From an uncultured Bacteroidales bacterium (GTDB lineage Bacteria > Bacteroidota > Bacteroidia > Bacteroidales > Barnesiellaceae): a stretch of DNA of 64,000 nucleotides. The notes under the pieces are model-generated. The model did not search any database. It was not told the origin of the DNA and saw only the letters and a program-made list of their open reading frames with translations. The stretch lies in contig CASFYQ010000012.1 in the NCBI GenBank assembly GCA_949298955.1, forward strand, positions 1-64,000. Reading direction: 5' to 3'. Positions 1,068 to 14,552 of this stretch are shown here, one piece after another. How positions within the stretch are numbered: position 1 is the stretch's first letter; each line of letters begins with the position of its first letter. The position numbers and the translations under genes were made by a program.

Positions 1068-1765
1068 GGTTCGGGTCGTTTTTCACCGTTACGGTAATAG
1101 TAGACGATGCCATAGGCCTGGCAACGGGAGAGCCGCTCGGCCAGCGGCAAAGAGCCATAATAGGCCTCCACCTGATTCCAAAGGTCGAGAATGATGTGGT
1201 CGGCCTCCTCGCGCAACGCGTCGAGCCCCGACTGCGAGCGGGTAGTGTTGAGCTTGTAATTTTGTTGTTCGCGATAGGCATCTTTGAAAATATCGTAGTG
1301 CACGGCCACCTTGGCAATCGTAGGGTTATAGATGGGAGCACCTCCATGAGAAAGTCGCTCACGTTCACCCTCGATAAGGCGTTCGCCCCACACGAGAATA
1401 TGCTTCTCGTTCGTCAAGTCGGGTACGGTAAAATCGTCGGGGTCGAGGCCGTAAAAAAGTTTATGTTCCTTACGCACCTCATTGCGCACCACCGCCAGAT
1501 TGAGCACCTGGATAAAGTGCGAGATGTAGAGCCGCGCTGTTTTCAGATGCTCCTGATACCGGCGATTGGCATCGGCCTGCGTCGTGTAGCAATATTGAAA
1601 CCGCTCCACCGCATTCTTGAACCGCCGCACGAATGCCCGCGCCTCGTTCAGGGTCTTGTACGAAGCCGCCTGATGCTCCACATCATACGCATGCTCCATC
1701 GACACCGCTTTTTCGAGGGCGGCGATGCGGGCTTTGTCGGTATTGGGCAATCGGCGGTATGGCAT
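1064..1765 (-). CDS. Conserved hypothetical cytoplasmic protein
   Basis: This 233-residue protein has no signal peptide or membrane segment. It is rich in charged and aromatic residues and appears mainly alpha-helical, with long amphipathic stretches at about 10-110 and 150-215. I do not recognise a catalytic motif and assign no function. It sits between the prenyl synthase (25-base gap) and tatD (4-base overlap), which argues that it is a real, co-transcribed gene. GC content and codon use match its neighbours. It resembles the short uncharacterised proteins found beside tatD in Bacteroidales, but that is an impression, not a search result. Confidence 0.75.
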   Translation of the reverse strand: MPYRRLPNTDKARIAALEKAVSMEHAYDVEHQAASYKTLNEARAFVRRFKNAVERFQYCYTTQADANRRYQEHLKTARLYISHFIQVLNLAVVRNEVRKEHKLFYGLDPDDFTVPDLTNEKHILVWGERLIEGERERLSHGGAPIYNPTIAKVAVHYDIFKDAYREQQNYKLNTTRSQSGLDALREEADHIILDLWNQVEAYYGSLPLAERLSRCQAYGIVYYYRNGEKRPEP

Positions 1766-1790
1766 GATGATATATCGATTTGGAAAAGAA

Positions 1791-2765
1791 TCAATGGTCC
1801 CGTTTGATAAGCGACCGGGCCAGGTCGTAGAGCGGCTGTTTGGCCGCTTCGGGCACGTCGATTTGCTGCAACGCCTCGATGGCCCGGCGACTGTATGCGT
1901 CGACCTGCTGCAAACACAAGTCGCCCGCCCCCACCCGGTTGTAGAGGGCCGTCACGGCCGCAATTTTTTCGGCCGGGTCGCATTGGGTGGCCGACAGCCA
2001 GCGCGCCAGCTCTGCGGCATCGTCCCCTTGGGCACGGCGTCGGGCGTTGATGAGCATATAGGTCTTCTTGTTGTTGAGAATATCACCTCCTATCTTCTTG
2101 CCAAAACGTGCCGGGTCGCCATAGACATCGAGCCAGTCGTCCTGCAACTGAAAGGCCAGCCCCAGCGACTCGCCGAAGCGATAGATGCGGTCGGCATCGT
2201 CGGCACCGGCTCCGCCTATGATGGCGCCAATCTTCAAGGCTCCGCCCAGCAGCACGGCCGTTTTGAGGCGTATCATCTCGATATATTCGTCTTCGGTCAC
2301 ATCGTCGCGGCTCTCAAACTCCATATCGAACTGTTGCCCCTCGCAAATCTCCAAAGCCGTTTTCAAAAACCAGTCGATGACTGCCGCCGTGTGCGGAGCC
2401 GGCGTGCGGGCAATATGGCGGAAGGCGATAATCTCCATAGCGTCGCCTGAGAGAATGGCCGTATTCTCGTCCCACACCTTGTGTACGGTGGGTTTACCCC
2501 GACGCACATCGGCCTTGTCCATCACATCGTCGTGCAAGAGCGTAAAATTGTGAAACACCTCCAACCCCACAGCGGCATCGAGAGCCCGACGGCAGTCGCC
2601 GCCAAACATCTCGCAGGCGAGCAGCGTCAACAACGGGCGCACCCGTTTACCACCCAACGACAGTTCATAACGCACCGGCGCATACAACCCGTCGGGCGAT
2701 GCGGCATATTCTATCTGCGAAAGCGCGGTCTCTATCGTATCGAAATATTTCTGCAAACCTTCCAT
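1791..2765 (-). CDS. Polyprenyl synthetase family protein (trans-isoprenyl diphosphate synthase)
   Basis: The enzyme condenses isopentenyl diphosphate with an allylic diphosphate to lengthen isoprenoid chains in the cytoplasm. The 324-residue sequence has the substrate-binding GGKRVRP at 38-44, the first aspartate-rich motif DDVMD at 79-83 and the second, DDWLD, at 209-213, both intact. Chain length (farnesyl, geranylgeranyl or octaprenyl) cannot be fixed by eye, so no symbol is given. It is the first gene of the minus-strand cluster with the 233-residue protein and tatD, and is preceded by a -7 box at 2816-2823. IspH at 4885-5775, transcribed away from it, supplies the same pathway. Confidence 0.9.
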   Translation of the reverse strand: MEGLQKYFDTIETALSQIEYAASPDGLYAPVRYELSLGGKRVRPLLTLLACEMFGGDCRRALDAAVGLEVFHNFTLLHDDVMDKADVRRGKPTVHKVWDENTAILSGDAMEIIAFRHIARTPAPHTAAVIDWFLKTALEICEGQQFDMEFESRDDVTEDEYIEMIRLKTAVLLGGALKIGAIIGGAGADDADRIYRFGESLGLAFQLQDDWLDVYGDPARFGKKIGGDILNNKKTYMLINARRRAQGDDAAELARWLSATQCDPAEKIAAVTALYNRVGAGDLCLQQVDAYSRRAIEALQQIDVPEAAKQPLYDLARSLIKRDH

Positions 2766-2815
2766 AAATTGTTTTTCAATATTTTTGATGTATTACCAAG
2801 AAACAGAATAGAGGT

Positions 2816-2823
2816 CAAATTTA
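2816..2823 (-). promoter_or_regulatory. Bacteroidota -7 promoter element for the prenyl synthase operon
   Basis: On the minus strand these bases read TAAATTTG, matching TAnnTTTG, about 50 bases upstream of the prenyl synthase start. Inferred from the motif alone. Confidence 0.5.
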
Positions 2824-2950
2824 GTCATTTCTACCGAGTCGGACAAGAGCCGGGCCGATAAGTTTACCCATAAACCTCGCGAGCAATATACTTTATCGCC
2901 CTTTTTCCCGTTATTAAATCATCGAAAACCTATTTATCAGCCAACTATGG

Positions 2951-3108
2951 TTTTCGTAGAAAATAGGAGAAGGCCCGGCAAAAAATCCAGGCAAACGTGA
3001 CTTTCTGCTCTCGCCTTTCACTATCTTTGCATATTGCGAAAATAGGATGCGGCTCGACAAAAAGTTCAAACAGGTTTGGCTTTCTGCTCTCGCCTTTCAC
3101 TATCTTTG
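2951..3108. repeat. Two tandem ~79-bp promoter-bearing repeat units
   Basis: Two units, about 2951-3029 and 3030-3108, each end in the same block reading TTTCTGCTCTCGCC then TTTCACTATCTTTG. The block's -7 boxes lie 79 bases apart (3022-3029 and 3101-3108). The other part of the unit carries a GAAAATAGGATGCGG-type block, degenerate in the first copy. The same unit in opposite orientation recurs at 58017-58205. Each unit places a promoter at its end facing the next gene, here porQ. Confidence 0.75.
3101..3108 (+). promoter_or_regulatory. -7 promoter element for porQ
   Basis: TATCTTTG lies 18 bases before the porQ start codon and inside the second repeat unit. An identical box at 3022-3029 in the first unit could act as a second start site. 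Confidence 0.55.
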
Positions 3109-3125
3109 AACCCCGAAAACGAAAT

Positions 3126-4154
3126 ATGAGATACTCGCTTCGATACATATCGGTACTGCTGGCACTTGCCTCCTGCCTGGCAGGAAGAGGGCAGGAAGGG
3201 ACAAGCTCGTTCGACTTTCTCAACATTCCTACCTCGACCCATGCCTATGCACTGGGGGGCACCAACATATCGGTTATCGACGAAGATATAAATCTGGTCA
3301 ACCAGAACCCCGCCCTCTTGGGGCCCGAGCTCGATTTGCAACTGGGCCTCAACTACATGAAATACGTGGGCGGCATCAATCTGGCCGGAGCCACCTTCGG
3401 CAAGGCGGCAGGCGAACGGGGAGCTTGGGCCGCCGGCATTCAATACTATGGCTACGGCAAGATGCAGAGTGCCGACGAGACGGGCGTCATCACGGGTGAA
3501 TTTTCGCCCCAAGACATCGTGTTCAACGGCATCTACTCGCACGACATCACCACCACCCTGCGCGGCGGAGTCAATGCCAAAGTCATCTACTCCTCCTACG
3601 AGCAATACACCTCGTGGGCCCTCGCCGTAGACTTGGGGCTCAACTACTACAACGCCGACAACGACCTGTCGCTCTCGCTCGTAGCACGTAACCTGGGAGG
3701 CCAAATCAAGCGTTACAACGAAACCTTCGAACGCATGCCTTTCGACTTGCAGCTGGGCTACACCCAAAGTCTCAAACATGCCCCCATACGCATTTCGGTC
3801 ACCGCCCGCCACCTCACACGCTGGAAACTGCCCTACCCGGCTCTCGAAAGCAGCTCCTACACAGGAAGCACCGATATCGTCGAGAAAAACAGCTTTGTCG
3901 ACAACCTCTTCCGCCACCTTATCTTCGGCGTGGAGTTCCTCCCCACCGACCGTCTCTATTTCGGGCTGGGCTACAACTACAAGACCCGCACCGACATGAA
4001 GACAGCCAGCCGCAATTTCCTCTCGGGATTCAGTATCGGCGGCGGTATCCAAGTACGCATGTTCGGCCTCGGAGTCGCCCTCGCCCAACAACATACGGGA
4101 GCCACCACCTTCATGGTAAACCTCTCGCTCAATCTCTTTGAATTTAAAAAATAA
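3126..4154 (+). CDS. porQ: Type IX secretion system protein PorQ
   Basis: This 342-residue exported protein starts MRYSLRYISV and has a signal peptide to about residue 22 (GRGQ). The mature protein is rich in alternating aromatic/hydrophobic strands, as in PorV/PorQ-type outer-membrane beta-barrels, and opens with the family-typical TSSFDFLNIPTSTHAYALGG. Upstream in-frame ATGs were rejected because the repeat promoter lies between them and this start. PorQ is an accessory outer-membrane component of T9SS, thought to assist cargo attachment together with PorU/PorZ. The gene order porQ-cmk-ispH supports the call. The PorE-like protein at 39841 and the CTD-bearing proteins at 59731-62857 are the matching machinery and cargo. 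Confidence 0.85.
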   Translation: MRYSLRYISVLLALASCLAGRGQEGTSSFDFLNIPTSTHAYALGGTNISVIDEDINLVNQNPALLGPELDLQLGLNYMKYVGGINLAGATFGKAAGERGAWAAGIQYYGYGKMQSADETGVITGEFSPQDIVFNGIYSHDITTTLRGGVNAKVIYSSYEQYTSWALAVDLGLNYYNADNDLSLSLVARNLGGQIKRYNETFERMPFDLQLGYTQSLKHAPIRISVTARHLTRWKLPYPALESSSYTGSTDIVEKNSFVDNLFRHLIFGVEFLPTDRLYFGLGYNYKTRTDMKTASRNFLSGFSIGGGIQVRMFGLGVALAQQHTGATTFMVNLSLNLFEFKK

Positions 4155-7058: not shown

Positions 7059-7268
7059 CGCGCCACACCACCGTCCTGTCATTCCGGGCCCGACCCGGAA
7101 TCCGGGAATGCCCCATTTGCACCCCACGACCGGCCCCTGCATCGAATACGGGGCGACACGGCAAGCCATACCGCCCCCCGACGTGATATACAAAAAATAC
7201 CAAACCGGGGCAAAAATTTTCCGCTGTGCAAAATGTAAAATTTATTTGCATTTACAAATCCCTTCTTT

Positions 7269-7276
7269 TATCTTTG
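7269..7276 (+). promoter_or_regulatory. -7 promoter element for the RSH gene
   Basis: TATCTTTG lies 21 bases before the start codon, with a TTTG-like -33 region (TTATTTGC) upstream in AT-rich DNA. Confidence 0.6.
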
Positions 7277-7297
7277 TGAGAATTAGATTTCAAAACT

Positions 7298-9541
7298 ATG
7301 GAACCGTCCGACCAAGCATACACGAACGAAGAGCAACTGATCGAAGACAAATTCCAGGAACTGCTCAACGGGTATCTCAATTCCAACCACCGGAAGAAGG
7401 TAGAGATCATTGAACGTGCATTTAAATTTGCCAAGGAGGCCCACAAGGGCATTCGCCGTCGCTCGGGCGAACCCTACATACTCCACCCCATCGCCGTGGC
7501 CCGCATCGTGAGCCAGGAGATAGGGTTGGGCTCCACCTCGATATGTGCCGCCCTGCTTCACGATGTAGTCGAGGATACCGAATATACGGTCGAAGACATC
7601 GAAAACCATTTCGGCAAGAAGATTGCCTCGATTGTCGACGGGCTCACCAAAATATCGGGCGGTATCTTCGGCGACCAGGCTTCGGCCCAAGCCGAGAATT
7701 TCCGGCGGCTGCTGCTCACCATGTCGGAAGATATTCGCGTGATTCTCATCAAGATGGCCGACCGCCTGCACAACATGCGCACCCTCGGGTCCATGCTTCC
7801 CAGCAAACAATACAAAATTGCCGGCGAAACCCTCTATATCTACGCCCCGCTGGCTCACCGTCTGGGACTCTTTGCCATCAAGACCGAACTCGAAGACCTC
7901 GCCTTCAAATACGAACACCCCGAGGCCTACAACCAGATAAAACAAAAGATTGCCGAGACCGAAGATTCGCGCCAGCAAATCTACAACAACTTTGCCCGTC
8001 CTATCGTCGCCAAACTCAAAGAGCTGGGCTTCGATTTCGAGATGAAGGCCCGCGTAAAATCCATCTACTCCATTTGGAACAAGATGGAATCGAAGCACAT
8101 ACCCTTCGAGGAGGTGTACGACCTCTATGCCGTGCGCATCATCTTCAAGTGCCCCAACGAGGCCGACGAGAAGAAAGAGTGCTGGACCATCTACTCGGTC
8201 ATTACCGACATCTACAAGCTACACCCCGAGCGTACCCGCGACTGGGTGAGCCGGCCCAAAGCCAACGGATACAAAGCCCTGCACCTCACCGTCATGGGTC
8301 CCGACGGCAACTGGATTGAGGTACAGATACGCAGCGAAAAGATGGACGAAATCGCCGAGCGCGGTTTTGCCGCCCACTGGAAATACAAGGTGGGAAACTC
8401 CGACGAAGAGTCGGAACTCGACATTTGGCTCAAAACCATCAAAGATATTCTCGAACACCCCGAGCCCAATGCCATCGATTTCCTCGACACCATCAAGCTC
8501 AATCTGTTCAGTACCGAGATTTTCGTCTTTACCCCCAAAGGCGAACTCATCACACTGCCCAAAGGAGCCACCGCCCTCGACCTGGCTTTCACCCTGCACT
8601 CCGACCTGGGCTTCCACTGCATCGCCGCCAAGGTGAACCACCGGCTTGTGCCCCTCAGCCAAAAGCTGCACAGCGGCGACCAGGTAGAAATACTCACCTC
8701 CAAGTCGCAGACTCCCAAGGAAGAGTGGCTCAACCTCGTCACCACCGCCAAGGCCCGCAGCCGGCTCCTGGCCTCGCTGCGCAAAGACCGGCGCAAAATC
8801 ATCGCCAAAGGCGAAGCCCTGCTAAAAGAATTTTTCGAAAGCAACCATATCGAAGACAGCAACGAGCTAATAAACAAAGTTATTGGCAGCCTGGGGCTAT
8901 CAAACCGCGACGACCTCTTCTACAAAATCGGTCACGAAGAAATTACCCTCAACGAGAACATCAAGAAAATCATCAAGGGCAAGAGCATAAACCCCTTCAT
9001 GCGATACCTCAAACTATCGTTCGGCAACAACGGCAACAAGAGCGAACAACCCAAACCTCTGCCCCAACAACCCATAGCGATAGACCGCAAGCAAACCTAT
9101 ATCTTGCGCGACGAGAACGGCGTGAAAAACTACAAGGTGGCCGACTGCTGCTGCCCCATTCCCGGCGACGACGTGTTGGGCTATGTCGAAGACGACGAGA
9201 CCGTAGTGGTGCACAAGCGCGAATGCCCCGTAGCCATGCGACTCAAATCGAGCTTCGGGCCACGTCTGGTATCGACACAGTGGGAAGCCAGCGAAGCACT
9301 CTCTTTCCCCGCCAAAATCGAAATACAAGGAATCGACCGCATGGGTATCCTCAACGAGATCACCCGTGTCATCTCCAACGAACTGATAATCGACATGAGA
9401 GGCCTCACCATACAAGCCAACGAAGGTGTATTCAACGGTACGGTCAACATCATGGTGCACGACACCCGGGTAGTCGAGTCGCTCTGCTCCAAATTACGGA
9501 AAATAAAAGGCGTGCAAAAAGCTGCACGCTGCAAAGAATAA
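7298..9541 (+). CDS. RelA/SpoT-type bifunctional (p)ppGpp synthetase/hydrolase
   Basis: This 747-residue protein is a long RSH enzyme that makes and degrades the stringent-response alarmone (p)ppGpp on or near the ribosome. The hydrolase domain (about 40-200) has H63 and an intact HDVVEDT at 88-94, so hydrolysis should be active. The synthetase domain (about 235-350) has YDLYAVRIIF and RPKANGYKALHLTV. A TGS domain (about 405-465) and a C-terminal ACT domain (about 665-747), separated by a cysteine-containing segment (DCCCPIPGD), complete the usual order. It is followed 9 bases later by the PgpH-like HD phosphodiesterase, so two nucleotide second-messenger enzymes appear co-transcribed. Confidence 0.94.
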   Translation: MEPSDQAYTNEEQLIEDKFQELLNGYLNSNHRKKVEIIERAFKFAKEAHKGIRRRSGEPYILHPIAVARIVSQEIGLGSTSICAALLHDVVEDTEYTVEDIENHFGKKIASIVDGLTKISGGIFGDQASAQAENFRRLLLTMSEDIRVILIKMADRLHNMRTLGSMLPSKQYKIAGETLYIYAPLAHRLGLFAIKTELEDLAFKYEHPEAYNQIKQKIAETEDSRQQIYNNFARPIVAKLKELGFDFEMKARVKSIYSIWNKMESKHIPFEEVYDLYAVRIIFKCPNEADEKKECWTIYSVITDIYKLHPERTRDWVSRPKANGYKALHLTVMGPDGNWIEVQIRSEKMDEIAERGFAAHWKYKVGNSDEESELDIWLKTIKDILEHPEPNAIDFLDTIKLNLFSTEIFVFTPKGELITLPKGATALDLAFTLHSDLGFHCIAAKVNHRLVPLSQKLHSGDQVEILTSKSQTPKEEWLNLVTTAKARSRLLASLRKDRRKIIAKGEALLKEFFESNHIEDSNELINKVIGSLGLSNRDDLFYKIGHEEITLNENIKKIIKGKSINPFMRYLKLSFGNNGNKSEQPKPLPQQPIAIDRKQTYILRDENGVKNYKVADCCCPIPGDDVLGYVEDDETVVVHKRECPVAMRLKSSFGPRLVSTQWEASEALSFPAKIEIQGIDRMGILNEITRVISNELIIDMRGLTIQANEGVFNGTVNIMVHDTRVVESLCSKLRKIKGVQKAARCKE

Positions 9542-9550
9542 CCCCACATC

Positions 9551-11683
9551 ATGGATCAAACCCGCATACAGAAAATTCTGTCCAGCAAACGCGTTTTACA
9601 GTTTGTCTTTTTCATAGCCGCGGTAACTCTGGTTACCTATTTCTTCCCCGGCGAGGGGAAATTCCGCTACTCTTTCCAAGAGGGGAAGCCCTGGAAATAC
9701 GGGCTGCTCACGGCCCCGTTCGACTTTCCCATCTACAAAGACGAGACCGTTATCGAACAAGAGAAAGACAGCATCATGCTCGGCTTTCAGCCGATATTCT
9801 CGTTCAACGAAGCAATAAGCGCCAAATCGACTGCCGATTTTGAAAACTCGCTCAACAGCCTTACCGGCCTGACCATCTCGCCGGAACTGCGTAAAAACAT
9901 GGTTCAAGCCCTGCGCGACACCTATCGCAAAGGCATCGTCTCGTCCGACGCCTACTCCCGGTTACAGTCGAGCAAATTCAAGGAGATACGCATTGTCGAG
10001 AACAACGTCGCCCGCGAGGTTCCCGTGGCCGAACTGCAATCGCCGCGAGAGGCCTATGAAAACATCATCGACCGGTTCCCCGACGCCTACTCCCATCACG
10101 TGCTGCAAAACTGCAACCTCAACGACTACCTCAACATCAACATCACTTTCGACAGCGTCACCACCGACCGCCTCAAAGACAACCTGCTGCAACGCATCGC
10201 CCTCTCCGACGGTATTGTCCAGGCCGGCGAGCGCATCGTGGACCGGGGCGAAATCATCACCCCGCAAACCTACCGGATACTCAAATCGTTCGAAACCGTG
10301 TCGCTCAAAAAAAGCACCGGCAACGACCACCGGGGCTACACCATCGTGGGACAGATTATCGTCTTCACCTGCCTCTTTGCCTTCTTCTACCTCTTTTTGG
10401 CGCTCTTCCGCCCGCAGACTTTCAACGAGATGCGCACCCTCGGTTTCATGATGATGCTCATCGTGGGAATCTCGCTCATCGCCTTCTTCCTATCCGAGAT
10501 ACGCGTACAAGGCATATACCTCGTACCTTTCGCCATCATACCCATCATCATCGTCACCTTTTTCGACTCACGCACGGCTCTCTACGTGCACCTCATCACC
10601 GTGCTCATCTGCGCCTTCACAGCCCCCTTTGCTCTCGAATTTATCTTCTTGCAGCTCATCGTGGGCATGACCGCCATCGACAGCCTCAGCGATCTCTCAC
10701 GACGGTCGCAACTCATGCGCTGCGCCGTATTCGTCTTCCTGGCCTACTGCTTTGCCTACGTGGGCTACACGTTGCTCTCCGAGGGCGATTTGTCGAAAAT
10801 CAACTACACCATGTTCATCTATTTCGGCATCAACTGCGTGTTCCTGCTCTTTGCCTACCTGCTCATCTACATCTTCGAGAAGAGTTTCGGGTTCATCTCT
10901 ACCGTCACGCTGGTCGAACTCTCCGATGTGAACAACCCCATTCTGCGCCAACTCTCAGAAGAGTGCCCCGGCACCTTCCAACACTCGCTGCAAATATCGA
11001 ACCTCGCCGCCGAGGCCGCCAACAAAATCGGGGCCAAAGCCCAGCTGGTACGTACCGGTGCCCTCTACCACGACATAGGCAAACTGAAAAATCCCGCCTT
11101 CTTCACCGAGAACCAGTCGGGGTTTAACCCCCACACGCCCCTCTCATTCGAGCAGAGCGCACAAATTGTCATCTCGCACGTAACCGACGGACTCAAGATG
11201 GCCGACAAACAAAGTCTGCCCCAGGCCATCAAAGACTTTATCGCCACACATCACGGCAAGGGAAAAGCCAAGTTCTTCTACAACTCCTATCGCAACAAAT
11301 ACCCCGACCGCCCCGTCGATGAAGCCAAATTTACCTATCCCGGACCCAATCCGTTCAGCAAAGAGACGGGTATCCTCATGATGGCCGATGCCGTCGAAGC
11401 AGCCTCGCGCAGCCTCAAAGAGTATACCAACGAAAGCATCTCACAACTGGTCAACCGCATTATCGACTCGCAAATCGCCGACGGGCTGCTGCGCGACACC
11501 CCCCTCAGCTTCCGCGACGTGGAGACCATCAAGGCTACTTTCATCGAGAAACTCAAGACCATCTACCACACCCGCATCAGCTATCCCGAACTTAACAAAA
11601 ACGAGAAACCTCACGAAGAAAAATCGGACGAAGGGCCCGCTCCCGAAAGCGACAAAGAGACCGACGCCTCCACTCCAAAATAA
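9551..11683 (+). CDS. 7TM-HD family phosphodiesterase (PgpH-like)
   Basis: This 710-residue membrane protein has an N-terminal transmembrane anchor (about 16-35), a 230-residue extracytoplasmic 7TMR-HDED-like domain, about seven membrane segments (roughly 265-450) and a cytoplasmic HD domain. Metal ligands are visible at about H478 (FQHSLQ) and H507-D508 (YHDIGK), with HVTDG and THHGKGKAKF further on. Characterised relatives (PgpH of Listeria) hydrolyse cyclic di-AMP; the substrate here is inferred. The C-terminus is a charged, low-complexity tail (KNEKPHEEKSDEG). The gene starts 9 bases after the RSH gene and probably shares its transcript. Confidence 0.9.
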   Translation: MDQTRIQKILSSKRVLQFVFFIAAVTLVTYFFPGEGKFRYSFQEGKPWKYGLLTAPFDFPIYKDETVIEQEKDSIMLGFQPIFSFNEAISAKSTADFENSLNSLTGLTISPELRKNMVQALRDTYRKGIVSSDAYSRLQSSKFKEIRIVENNVAREVPVAELQSPREAYENIIDRFPDAYSHHVLQNCNLNDYLNINITFDSVTTDRLKDNLLQRIALSDGIVQAGERIVDRGEIITPQTYRILKSFETVSLKKSTGNDHRGYTIVGQIIVFTCLFAFFYLFLALFRPQTFNEMRTLGFMMMLIVGISLIAFFLSEIRVQGIYLVPFAIIPIIIVTFFDSRTALYVHLITVLICAFTAPFALEFIFLQLIVGMTAIDSLSDLSRRSQLMRCAVFVFLAYCFAYVGYTLLSEGDLSKINYTMFIYFGINCVFLLFAYLLIYIFEKSFGFISTVTLVELSDVNNPILRQLSEECPGTFQHSLQISNLAAEAANKIGAKAQLVRTGALYHDIGKLKNPAFFTENQSGFNPHTPLSFEQSAQIVISHVTDGLKMADKQSLPQAIKDFIATHHGKGKAKFFYNSYRNKYPDRPVDEAKFTYPGPNPFSKETGILMMADAVEAASRSLKEYTNESISQLVNRIIDSQIADGLLRDTPLSFRDVETIKATFIEKLKTIYHTRISYPELNKNEKPHEEKSDEGPAPESDKETDASTPK

Positions 11684-11798
11684 AACCACATAACCCGAGA
11701 CTCTTGTCCTCGGTGAAAAACCGTCATCACACTTTTATGACCTTGCCACAAACCCGGGGAGGAGAGATATTTCTTTTGCAGGAAAATTGCAAAAGAAG

Positions 11799-13832
11799 AT
11801 GGTACCGATACGACACGAGACAATAACGGTTGAAGCCAACCGGCTGCGAAACGAGAAGCTGAAACGATTCTATTCCCCCGCGACGGGCGAGGGCAGCGAC
11901 ACGGGCGACCGACGCCCCTTGCAGCTACCCGACGCTCCGCTGCCGCTGCAATATATCCCGGCGGCAATGTTCGACGAACCGCTGGTGCGACAACTTGCCG
12001 AAGCAGGGAGTCTGGTCGATTTTCTGCGTCGGCAGGGAGTCGAAATTGTCGACGACAGTCCCACCCCGGCAGCAAACGGCGAGGGCGACGACAGCAAGCT
12101 TTCGCCTCTCGACACGTTGTGGCGGGAGTTCATACAGGTGCGCATACGATACGACTTCGAATTTTGGGCATACAGTTTCGTACGCATCAAGGACAAGTTG
12201 GGGGCCGACGATATTCCCTTTCGGCTCAACCGGCCGCAACGCCGCATACTGGGCATGCTCGAATCGATGCGCACTGCCGGCCGCCCCATTCGCCTCATTC
12301 TGCTCAAAGCCCGCCAGTGGGGAGGCTCTACCCTCATACAAATCTACATGGCTTGGATACAGCTGGTGCACCGCCGCAACTGGAACAGCGTGATATGCGC
12401 CCACATCAAGGAGTCGGCCGCCAACATCAAGGGCATGTATAGCAAACTGCTGGCCAATTATCCCGACTGGCTGCTCGACGAAGGCAAGCCCAAATTCCGC
12501 CCTTTCGAACGTATGGCCAACACCTCGGTCATTGCGGGGCGCGACTGCCGGGTCACCATCGGGTCGGCCGAAAGCCAGGAGTCGATACGAGGCATCGATG
12601 TCGCCATGGCACACCTCTCCGAGGTAGCCTTCTGGCGCAACAGCCGAATGAAATCGCCCGAGCAACTGGTACGCTCGGTATGCGGCTCGATTATGCTGCT
12701 GCCCTACTCGATGGTCGTGATGGAGAGCACGGCCAACGGCACCGGTTCTTATTTCCACCAGGAGTGTGAACGGGCCAAACGGCACGAAAGCGACAAACAG
12801 TTTGCCTTCGTGCCCTGGTTCGAAATCGAAATGTATACCATTCCCGTCGACGACTACGACTCGCTCATCGCCACACTCACCGACTACGAGCGTATGCTCT
12901 GGGCCCGCGGAGCCACCCTCGAAGCTATTGCCTGGTACCGGCAGAAACGCAAAGAGTATGCCCGCCATACCGACATGATGGCCGAGTATCCCAGCGACGA
13001 CATCGAGGCGTTCTGCTACTCGGGCGAACGGGTGTTCGACCCCACGCTCGTCGAGAAATTGCGGCGCAGTTGCTGCTCACCCCGCTTCGAAGGCGACATT
13101 CACGGCCGGGAGCTTACCGGCCGGGAAGCTCTCGAAGACATCGAGTTGGAGGCCCGACCGAACGGACCGCTGCAAGTGTGGGAATATCCGGCCGAACGGC
13201 ACGAGATGCGCGACCGCTATCTGGCAGTGGTCGACATCGGCGGTCGCTCCGACACGGCCGACTACTCGGTTATCGCCATCTTCGACCGCTACTGGATGCT
13301 CGAAGGAGGGCCCGCCGAGGTGGTGGCCCAGTGGCGGGGGCACATCGACCACGACCTGCTCGCCTGGAAAGCCGCCCAACTCGCCACCTATTATCAAAAT
13401 GCCCTGCTGGTCATCGAGAGCAACACCCTCGAAACCGAGCACGACGACAGCGAACACTCGGCCTACCTGCTCGACACCCTCTCGCGTTACTACGAGAACC
13501 TCTATGCCCGACAGGCTCCGCCCGACAGCATCGGGCAGCGTCCGGCCTCTCGCTGGGGCTTCCACATGAACCGGGCTACCAAGGTGCTGGTAATCGACGC
13601 CCAGCGGTCGGCTCTGCGCGAGAGAGCCTACATCGAGCACGACGCTCAGGCCTGCTACGAACACGACGTGTTCGAACGCAAGCCCAACGGCAGCTACGGA
13701 GCCATGGAGGGGCACCACGACGACATACTCATTACCCGCTGCATCGGCAACTACATTTGCAGCCGCGAACTCCCTTCGTTCATCAAGCCGGGCCGCCTGG
13801 GCGAGAACATTGTCAACGAGTCGTCGATATAG
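11799..13832 (+). CDS. Orphan phage-type terminase large subunit (ATPase-nuclease)
   Basis: This 677-residue protein has the two-domain plan of a phage DNA-packaging terminase. The ATPase part has a Walker A-like LLKARQWGGST (168-178), a Walker B region GIDVAMAHLSEVAFW (265-279, glutamate E275) and a coupling motif MESTANG (308-314). The nuclease part has RNase H-fold acidic residues D479 (LAVVDIGG), E540 (LLVIESN) and D641-D642 (GHHDDIL). All key residues are present, so it should be functional. An ATG at 11799 is preferred over an in-frame TTG four codons earlier. No small terminase, portal, protease or capsid gene is adjacent, and GC content matches the host. It may be domesticated or a phage remnant; the biological role is unknown. 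Confidence 0.8.
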   Translation: MVPIRHETITVEANRLRNEKLKRFYSPATGEGSDTGDRRPLQLPDAPLPLQYIPAAMFDEPLVRQLAEAGSLVDFLRRQGVEIVDDSPTPAANGEGDDSKLSPLDTLWREFIQVRIRYDFEFWAYSFVRIKDKLGADDIPFRLNRPQRRILGMLESMRTAGRPIRLILLKARQWGGSTLIQIYMAWIQLVHRRNWNSVICAHIKESAANIKGMYSKLLANYPDWLLDEGKPKFRPFERMANTSVIAGRDCRVTIGSAESQESIRGIDVAMAHLSEVAFWRNSRMKSPEQLVRSVCGSIMLLPYSMVVMESTANGTGSYFHQECERAKRHESDKQFAFVPWFEIEMYTIPVDDYDSLIATLTDYERMLWARGATLEAIAWYRQKRKEYARHTDMMAEYPSDDIEAFCYSGERVFDPTLVEKLRRSCCSPRFEGDIHGRELTGREALEDIELEARPNGPLQVWEYPAERHEMRDRYLAVVDIGGRSDTADYSVIAIFDRYWMLEGGPAEVVAQWRGHIDHDLLAWKAAQLATYYQNALLVIESNTLETEHDDSEHSAYLLDTLSRYYENLYARQAPPDSIGQRPASRWGFHMNRATKVLVIDAQRSALRERAYIEHDAQACYEHDVFERKPNGSYGAMEGHHDDILITRCIGNYICSRELPSFIKPGRLGENIVNESSI

Positions 13833-14081: not shown

Positions 14082-14552
14082 ATGAAAATAAAGTACATCT
14101 TGGGTATCGCTTTGACCTGCCTGCCATTCCTCTTCCCGGGCCAGGCCAAGGAACAACCCTCCCAACAGGAAAAGAACGCACAAGTGCAGCCGGTAAAGCC
14201 CCGCCAACTCACCAAGGCCGAGTTTCTCTCGAAAGTGGTTAATTTCGAGAAGACCCCCGACCGCTGGGAATACCTGGGAACCCGCCCCTGTATCGTCGAT
14301 TTCTACGCCAGCTGGTGCGGTCCCTGCCGCCAACTGGCCCCCATACTCGATGAAATTGCCGCCGAATATGCCGGGAAAATCGATGTCTATAAAGTCAATA
14401 TCGACAAGGAGCCGCAACTGGCTGCGCTGTTCGGGATACAAAGCATTCCCACCCTGCTCTTCTGCCCCATGGAAAACCAGCCCCAGATTGCCGCCGGGCT
14501 CATGAGTAAGGAGAGCTTGCAAGAGGCCATCGAGCAGGTATTGCTCCCGTAG
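14082..14552 (+). CDS. Exported thioredoxin-fold protein
   Basis: This 156-residue protein has a signal peptide (about 1-22, ending FPGQA) and a thioredoxin domain with the active site ASWCGPCRQ at about 73-81 and the cis-proline segment GIQSIPTLLF near 126. The CGPC motif is that of reducing thioredoxins rather than DsbA-like oxidases. Export implies a role in periplasmic disulfide reduction or peroxide protection, as for similar Bacteroidales proteins. It stands alone with its own probable promoter and is followed 66 bases later by the SLC13 transporter on the same strand. Confidence 0.88.
   Translation: MKIKYILGIALTCLPFLFPGQAKEQPSQQEKNAQVQPVKPRQLTKAEFLSKVVNFEKTPDRWEYLGTRPCIVDFYASWCGPCRQLAPILDEIAAEYAGKIDVYKVNIDKEPQLAALFGIQSIPTLLFCPMENQPQIAAGLMSKESLQEAIEQVLLP

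Follow-up and report, generated by a model that had tools for sequence, protein, structure and literature searches.

The presence of an apparently complete phage terminase gene amid ordinary host genes raises the question of what a DNA-packaging motor does in such a place. The gene was encountered in the window, the whole 64-kb stretch of DNA analysed here, which opens contig C12 of the Barnesiella genome G000. On the 5' side of the gene are a SpoT-like gene and then a 7TM-HD phosphodiesterase (9551-11683; PF07698/PF07697/PF01966), and on its 3' side is a thioredoxin (14082-14552; PF00085). The earlier note, made from the sequence of this window, had set the gene between a second-messenger phosphodiesterase and a thioredoxin and had seen no small terminase, portal, protease, capsid or tail gene in the window. 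This description holds, as proteins of related phages compared with the entire 64 kb matched the large terminase (TerL) and no further gene. The gene is also found downstream of the phosphodiesterase in longer loci from other Barnesiella, sometimes with a restriction-modification-like gene pair in between. A two-gene unit between the phosphodiesterase and terL is seen in six Barnesiella genomes (L012-L015, L067, L068) and is absent from G000; it pairs an Eco57I/N6_Mtase-type methylase (~495 aa) with a partner of ~243 aa that is encoded on the other strand. Elsewhere in the window, between 20000 and 21250, the G+C content falls to 0.37-0.44 in surroundings mostly of 0.5-0.6, and this segment may be a later insertion.

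The terL gene (11799..13832, forward strand) codes for a large terminase with ATPase and nuclease domains, as judged from profile and fold matches, motifs and dN/dS values. Its open reading frame yields 677 aa from the ATG at 11799 or 681 aa from a TTG at 11787, and the ATG is to be preferred in view of the promoter-like -7 box, described below, at 11775-11779. Searches of Pfam and NCBIfam returned no match for the protein. A PHROGs search recovered phrog_2, the terminase large subunit (7.4e-20), and a profile comparison against the PDB recovered T4 gp17 (8.6e-17). The AlphaFold model (mean pLDDT 84.7) again had T4 gp17 as its top Foldseek match (7.0e-23), with the HK97, D6E and Sf6 terminases lower, and matched the nuclease domain of RB49 gp17 with a TM to target of 0.76-0.78. 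In the numbering of the 681-aa form, from which that of the earlier note is obtained by subtracting 4, a Walker A-like motif (LLKARQWGGST) spans residues 172-182, a Walker B-like motif (VAMAHLSEVAFW) residues 272-283 and a MESTANG motif residues 312-318, with nuclease residues at D483, E544 and D645/D646. The protein thus has the Walker A, Walker B and coupling motifs of a packaging ATPase (LLKARQWGGST, LSE and ESTANG) as well as an RNase H-like C-terminal nuclease with an acidic triad. The aspartate of Walker B is replaced by serine, as it is in most of the related phage TerLs. The key ATPase and nuclease residues are invariant in 32/32 orthologues. Profile, fold and motif comparison therefore agree with the original assignment of an intact TerL that keeps all its motifs.

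TerL is single-copy and intact in all nine Barnesiella genomes, and the eight copies other than that of the window are 81-90% identical to it and free of stops. Among 393 sampled Bacteroidales genomes 32 were TerL-positive (E < 1e-30). The proteins from families f22, f29, f61, f69 and f89 share 58-66% identity with the window protein, except that of G333 (54%), and in f29 the gene was recovered from 8/8 genomes, one copy being split over two contigs. Outside Barnesiella, TerL adjoins conserved virion genes that phages also carry. A P22-type portal, sought with profiles from genes neighbouring TerL in those other genomes, and an SU10-type major capsid protein (MCP) were each detected in 36/36 TerL-positive Bacteroidales genomes, this co-occurrence being counted within the TerL-positive set; a tail protein homologous to phage gp34 was detected in 28 of 29 genomes. 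In G381 and G146 of family f26 (L085, L086), a portal, a capsid and a far more divergent TerL lie within about 10-25 kb, and these clusters are possibly prophages or a separate compact system.

The proposal that the window holds a solitary terminase is thus correct for the window and incorrect for the genome, since portal, capsid, tail and lysis genes are found on other contigs. The other particle genes of G000 lie on four contigs besides C12, giving five contigs in all when the endolysin is included. On C18, a P22-type portal on the forward strand (1524-3542; profile match, with an inferred start codon) is followed by genes for proteins of 166, 167 and 768 aa (7120-10453). The 166-aa and 768-aa members of this trio match phage virion proteins, and the P22-type gene arrangement marks all three as putative ejection proteins. 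The ~768-aa protein (L147 8147-10453) matches only part of the 5,000-5,500-aa DarB-like/LPD38 phage proteins (L065/L066), and looks as if it were a cut-down, domesticated version of the giant phage protein. The head operon, on the reverse strand of C14 (25253-29773), codes for a scaffold-like protein, the capsid and three further proteins, and this scaffold-capsid-connector operon accounts for the connector-like proteins encoded in G000. The tail gene is on the reverse strand of C20 (17891-20407). The functions given for the small proteins of the particle loci are putative. Most of the particle proteins are homologous to those of temperate Bacteroides phages, and their genes are unlinked to terL and mostly single-copy.

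The dispersal can be measured in G008, a finished genome of one 3.08 Mb contig, where the tail gene is at 1,132,363, the portal at 1,148,840, the MCP at 1,395,207 and TerL at 1,427,246. These loci cover about 297 kb (1,132,363-1,429,276) and fall into at least three well-separated virion regions, namely tail/portal/ejection, head and TerL. A scan of the first 1.22 Mb of G008 found structural phage homologues limited to these particle genes, and no integrase, replication or repressor genes were found with the scattered particle genes. A functional temperate prophage would combine contiguous virion genes with genes for integration and replication, and in both G008 and G000 the genes are instead dispersed. 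In G265, G096 and G036 the particle genes fall within about 40-55 kb, interspersed with genes that have no phage match.

Alignment of the Barnesiella regions upstream of four of the loci revealed a common element, T.TAT.A...TGCCAYAAA, with TTT(G/A)C positioned exactly 31 nt after TGCCA. In the window, this promoter-like element occupies 11734..11781 on the forward strand and consists of TATGACCTTGCCACAAA (11736-11752) and TTTGC (11775-11779), with the same 31-nt spacing from TGCCA to TTTGC. The TTT(G/A)C box is similar to the -7 element of Bacteroides, TANNTTTGY (PMC12632263). The element precedes five virion operons of Barnesiella, those of TerL, portal, head, tail and ejection proteins, and the spacing is identical in all 32 instances. 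The pattern TATNANNNTGCCANAA-N23-TTT has one match in the window, at TerL, and 0 in 60 Markov shuffles of it. The form TGCCAYAA-N23-TTTGC likewise occurs once in the window, at TerL; within 1.22 Mb of G008 it is confined to the portal and ejection operons, and it stands before the ejection operon in each of the three genomes read for it (G000, G003, G008). G008, G004 and G002 each contain four copies of the exact 42-nt pattern, which in every case belong to the operons of tail, portal, head and TerL. When a position weight matrix built only from the TerL and head promoters of other species was run over 2.44 million positions, the G008 portal site ranked 1st and the G008 tail site 2nd; this ranking of held-out sites counters the concern that the motif had been selected post hoc.

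The Barnesiella motif was sought in the particle loci of other families and was not found there. In G265 (f61; L151-L154) we noted a different motif, ATAATTATA[AG]NAT. It has exactly three copies in 80 kb, all of them immediately preceding virion operons, at the scaffold, c3-TerL and tail genes. This tentatively suggests that the regulon persists in f61 with a changed signal. Within Barnesiella, additional exact or near-exact copies of the virion motif occur at G003:C2:649400, G003:C3:421760, G003:C4:372936 and G000:C2:253795, and one of those in G003 (L320) stands before a 232-aa protein without a family. The genes behind such copies may be missing parts, for example a small terminase, or a regulator.

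The motif search also led to an N-acetylmuramoyl-L-alanine amidase of endolysin type (Amidase_3, 9.7e-25; phrog_435, 3.3e-34), which homology and promoter together mark as the putative endolysin of the particle system. In G000, G003 and G004 the gene begins 65 nt from the first position of the motif, and in G006 it follows the motif closely, so that the motif-preceded endolysin is seen in at least four species. One close orthologue of the amidase is present in seven of the nine Barnesiella genomes, the two without it, G001 and G008, being sister genomes. In G265, the head and tail genes have a holin and an endolysin as neighbours. In Barnesiella, both a small terminase (TerS) and a holin were sought and neither was found. 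Two small-terminase candidates, the ~80-aa c3 that precedes TerL in other families and the 232-aa protein of G003, are alike by eye, and were set aside as the profile match between them was too weak. A ~140-aa gene upstream of phage TerLs was also rejected; of the loci searched, just those of G265 yielded a homologue.

In the TerL tree the families form separate groups (f61 without G333), and their order, f22, f1 and then f29/f89/f61+f69, is that of the rpoB tree; the branching within f22 and within f29 likewise agrees between the two. Pairwise distances correlate with those of rpoB at 0.83 for TerL, 0.83 for the portal, 0.73 for the MCP and 0.88 for the tail protein, and at 0.76-0.90 among these four proteins; in a permutation test, 0 of 2000 permutations gave correlations as high. 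Median dN/dS values within Barnesiella are 0.116 for TerL (range 0.06-0.18), 0.076 for the portal, 0.044 for the capsid and 0.196 for the tail protein, with 0.018 for rpoB. The portal tree deviates from that of rpoB, with f89 branching first and f1 joined with f22, mostly at modest support. Moreover, the TerL and capsid of G333 (G333:C231) group with the viral contig L026 and not with the other f61 copies, and in the MCP tree L026 and G333 fall inside the GTA-like group with a support of 91. This placement leaves room for some exchange between the particle genes and phages. The G333 copies may themselves come from a recent prophage that is related to the domesticated genes.

We propose, at a probability of roughly 0.77, that TerL drives DNA packaging in a podovirus-like particle that the host has domesticated. 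This particle would most likely be a gene transfer agent (GTA), with its genes dispersed over the Barnesiella chromosome as one regulon. Scattered genes that lack an integrase, replication genes and a repressor, and among which TerS and holin were not found, could also be read as decay, with TerL, portal and capsid being functionless leftovers of one or more broken-up old prophages. This is very unlikely, given that the core genes are intact in 9/9 Barnesiella and in other families, that their dN/dS is well below 1 with catalytic residues invariant, and that remnants would not be expected to retain one promoter type of exact spacing at five operons. The very recent loss of a prophage, one of the options in the earlier note, is contradicted by the antiquity of TerL in these families, where it follows rpoB, and is further opposed by its conservation and promoter. 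Selection for a cellular use, which the same note had suggested, is supported by the intact TerL genes, their low dN/dS and invariant catalytic residues; it was to be abandoned if phage structural genes adjoined the terminase or catalytic residues were lost, and we observed neither adjacent phage genes in Barnesiella nor the loss of any such residue. The recruitment of TerL singly by the cell, for instance to mobilise DNA or to serve in defence, would agree with its isolation in the Barnesiella neighbourhood, but is exceedingly improbable in view of the portal and capsid kept in every TerL-positive genome, the promoter type that they share with it in Barnesiella, and the virion genes that adjoin TerL in other families. 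Scaffold, ejection and tail genes, and in most species lysis genes, also persist with this type of promoter, which is not what a lone recruited terminase would leave. Packaging in trans, also suggested at the outset, comes close to the likely truth, as the other particle genes lie elsewhere in the chromosome.

Particles derived from phages have come to serve other ends as well, and the delivery of host DNA is here a prediction, so that a domesticated particle employed for something other than transfer, such as killing relatives or carrying a protein cargo, has to be considered. We regard this as unlikely: the conservation of the TerL ATPase and nuclease residues, the portal and the ejection-type proteins points to DNA packaging, and headless killing particles would have no use for TerL, portal or capsid. 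It is also conceivable that the scattered genes are helpers, making particles for one specific plasmid, satellite or related phage. Some satellites are known to hijack the particles of phages, and related temperate phages occur in Bacteroides and on a Parabacteroides plasmid record. We give this explanation very little credence, since no conserved mobile partner was seen beside the loci, and since agreement with the host tree across six families would not be expected of a system that depended on such a partner.

A domesticated particle that is probably a GTA accords with the published definition (PMC9662315), by which caudoviricete-derived proteins form particles; the genome is endogenized in the host, often at multiple loci, is vertically inherited and co-diversifies with the host, and is not fully packageable in one particle; and mostly random host DNA is packaged and delivered to other cells. 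TerL, portal, MCP, scaffold and tail proteins are similar to those of tailed phages and are predicted to form the particle. The genes are endogenized at multiple loci in G008 and G000, and they co-diversify with the host, the deep order of the portal tree and G333 being the exceptions. The joint packaging of all loci in one head is implausible at a span of about 297 kb, and a regulon that is unpackageable as a unit fits a GTA and not a virus. Because the genes are up to hundreds of kb apart, the particles could not carry the whole set, and the DNA delivered would be that of the host. The packaging of random host DNA and its transfer between cells are steps that we infer, and we term the system GTA-like, and probably a GTA proper. 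Against a GTA stand the endolysin missing from G001 and G008, the TerS and holin not found in Barnesiella, the grouping of G333 with L026, the order of the portal tree, the motif not found in other families, and several G003 motif copies that precede genes other than the named particle genes.

As envisaged, a common regulator, perhaps a sigma factor or an activator, would switch the regulon on under some condition. Heads would assemble on the scaffold, TerL would dock on the portal and fill them with chromosomal DNA, and a short tail with the ejection proteins would complete the particle. A fraction of the cells would then lyse with the help of the endolysin and free particles whose delivered cargo would be host DNA. 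We further consider it probable, if with somewhat more reserve, that this is an undescribed GTA of the Bacteroidales that was present in the ancestor of at least six families, and whose genes have dissolved into the chromosome, joined only by a dedicated promoter, so that the host would now run the head, portal/ejection, packaging, tail and lysis genes like any other of its regulons.

Among the known systems, RcGTA of Rhodobacter capsulatus, which with its relatives forms the Rhodogtaviriformidae, has its head and tail genes mostly in one cluster and an HK97-type capsid. It resembles the Barnesiella system in its phage-derived virion genes, vertical inheritance, several loci and host control. 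Compared by description, the latter differs in its unlinked TerL, portal and ejection, head and tail modules, its P22-type portal and SU10-type capsid, and its occurrence in Bacteroidota; RcGTA has five loci (PMC9662315). The closest in setting is FpGTA of Faecalibacterium, also from a gut bacterium, with podovirus-like parts, separate structural and lysis operons (I, 10.5 kb; II, 5.5 kb; about 125 kb apart) and conservation across the genus (PMC12946183). However, FpGTA belongs to Bacillota and has two compact operons, and its particles and packaged DNA have been shown experimentally (PMC12946183), whereas the Barnesiella system has at least five virion operons and a lysis gene and is known from genomes alone. 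For Bacteroides, the same study reported lateral transduction and no GTA (PMC12946183). Compared likewise by description, VSH-1/BhGTA of Brachyspira is another GTA of an intestinal anaerobe, with a genome likely dispersed over multiple loci (PMC9662315), but belongs to a different phylum.

The temperate Bacteroides phages BKO1-TP3, BS-TP4 and BF1-TP2 and the IMG/VR contig L026 have similar TerL (42-53%), portal (about 47%) and capsid (up to 65%) proteins and homologous scaffold, connector, ejection-type and tail proteins. In contrast to the Barnesiella genes, these are contiguous viral genomes, and BKO1-TP3 (65 kb) has an integrase, a repressor, replication genes and a 5,500-aa DarB-like protein, whose Barnesiella counterpart of about 770 aa is a partial match. 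We also noted that gp51 of BKO1-TP3 (PQ571269.1; L065 20001-22034), a large terminase, is annotated as 'tail spike protein', as are its equivalents in PQ571277 and PQ571263, an apparent misannotation.

GTAs are known from a few lineages, mainly Alphaproteobacteria and recently gut Bacillota, and we found no description of one in Bacteroidetes, Bacteroidota or Bacteroidales in the open-licence literature searched. The common promoter, which has already pointed to the endolysin, predicts a regulon, a regulator and co-expression of the particle genes. If the proposal is true, this would be an unusually dispersed GTA, with a bearing on how domesticated viruses dissolve into host genomes. Bacteroidales are reported to belong to those groups of gut bacteria that exchange genes at the highest rates (PMC12946183), and an ancient, vertically kept system of this kind would, if real, offer a concrete mechanism for part of that exchange.
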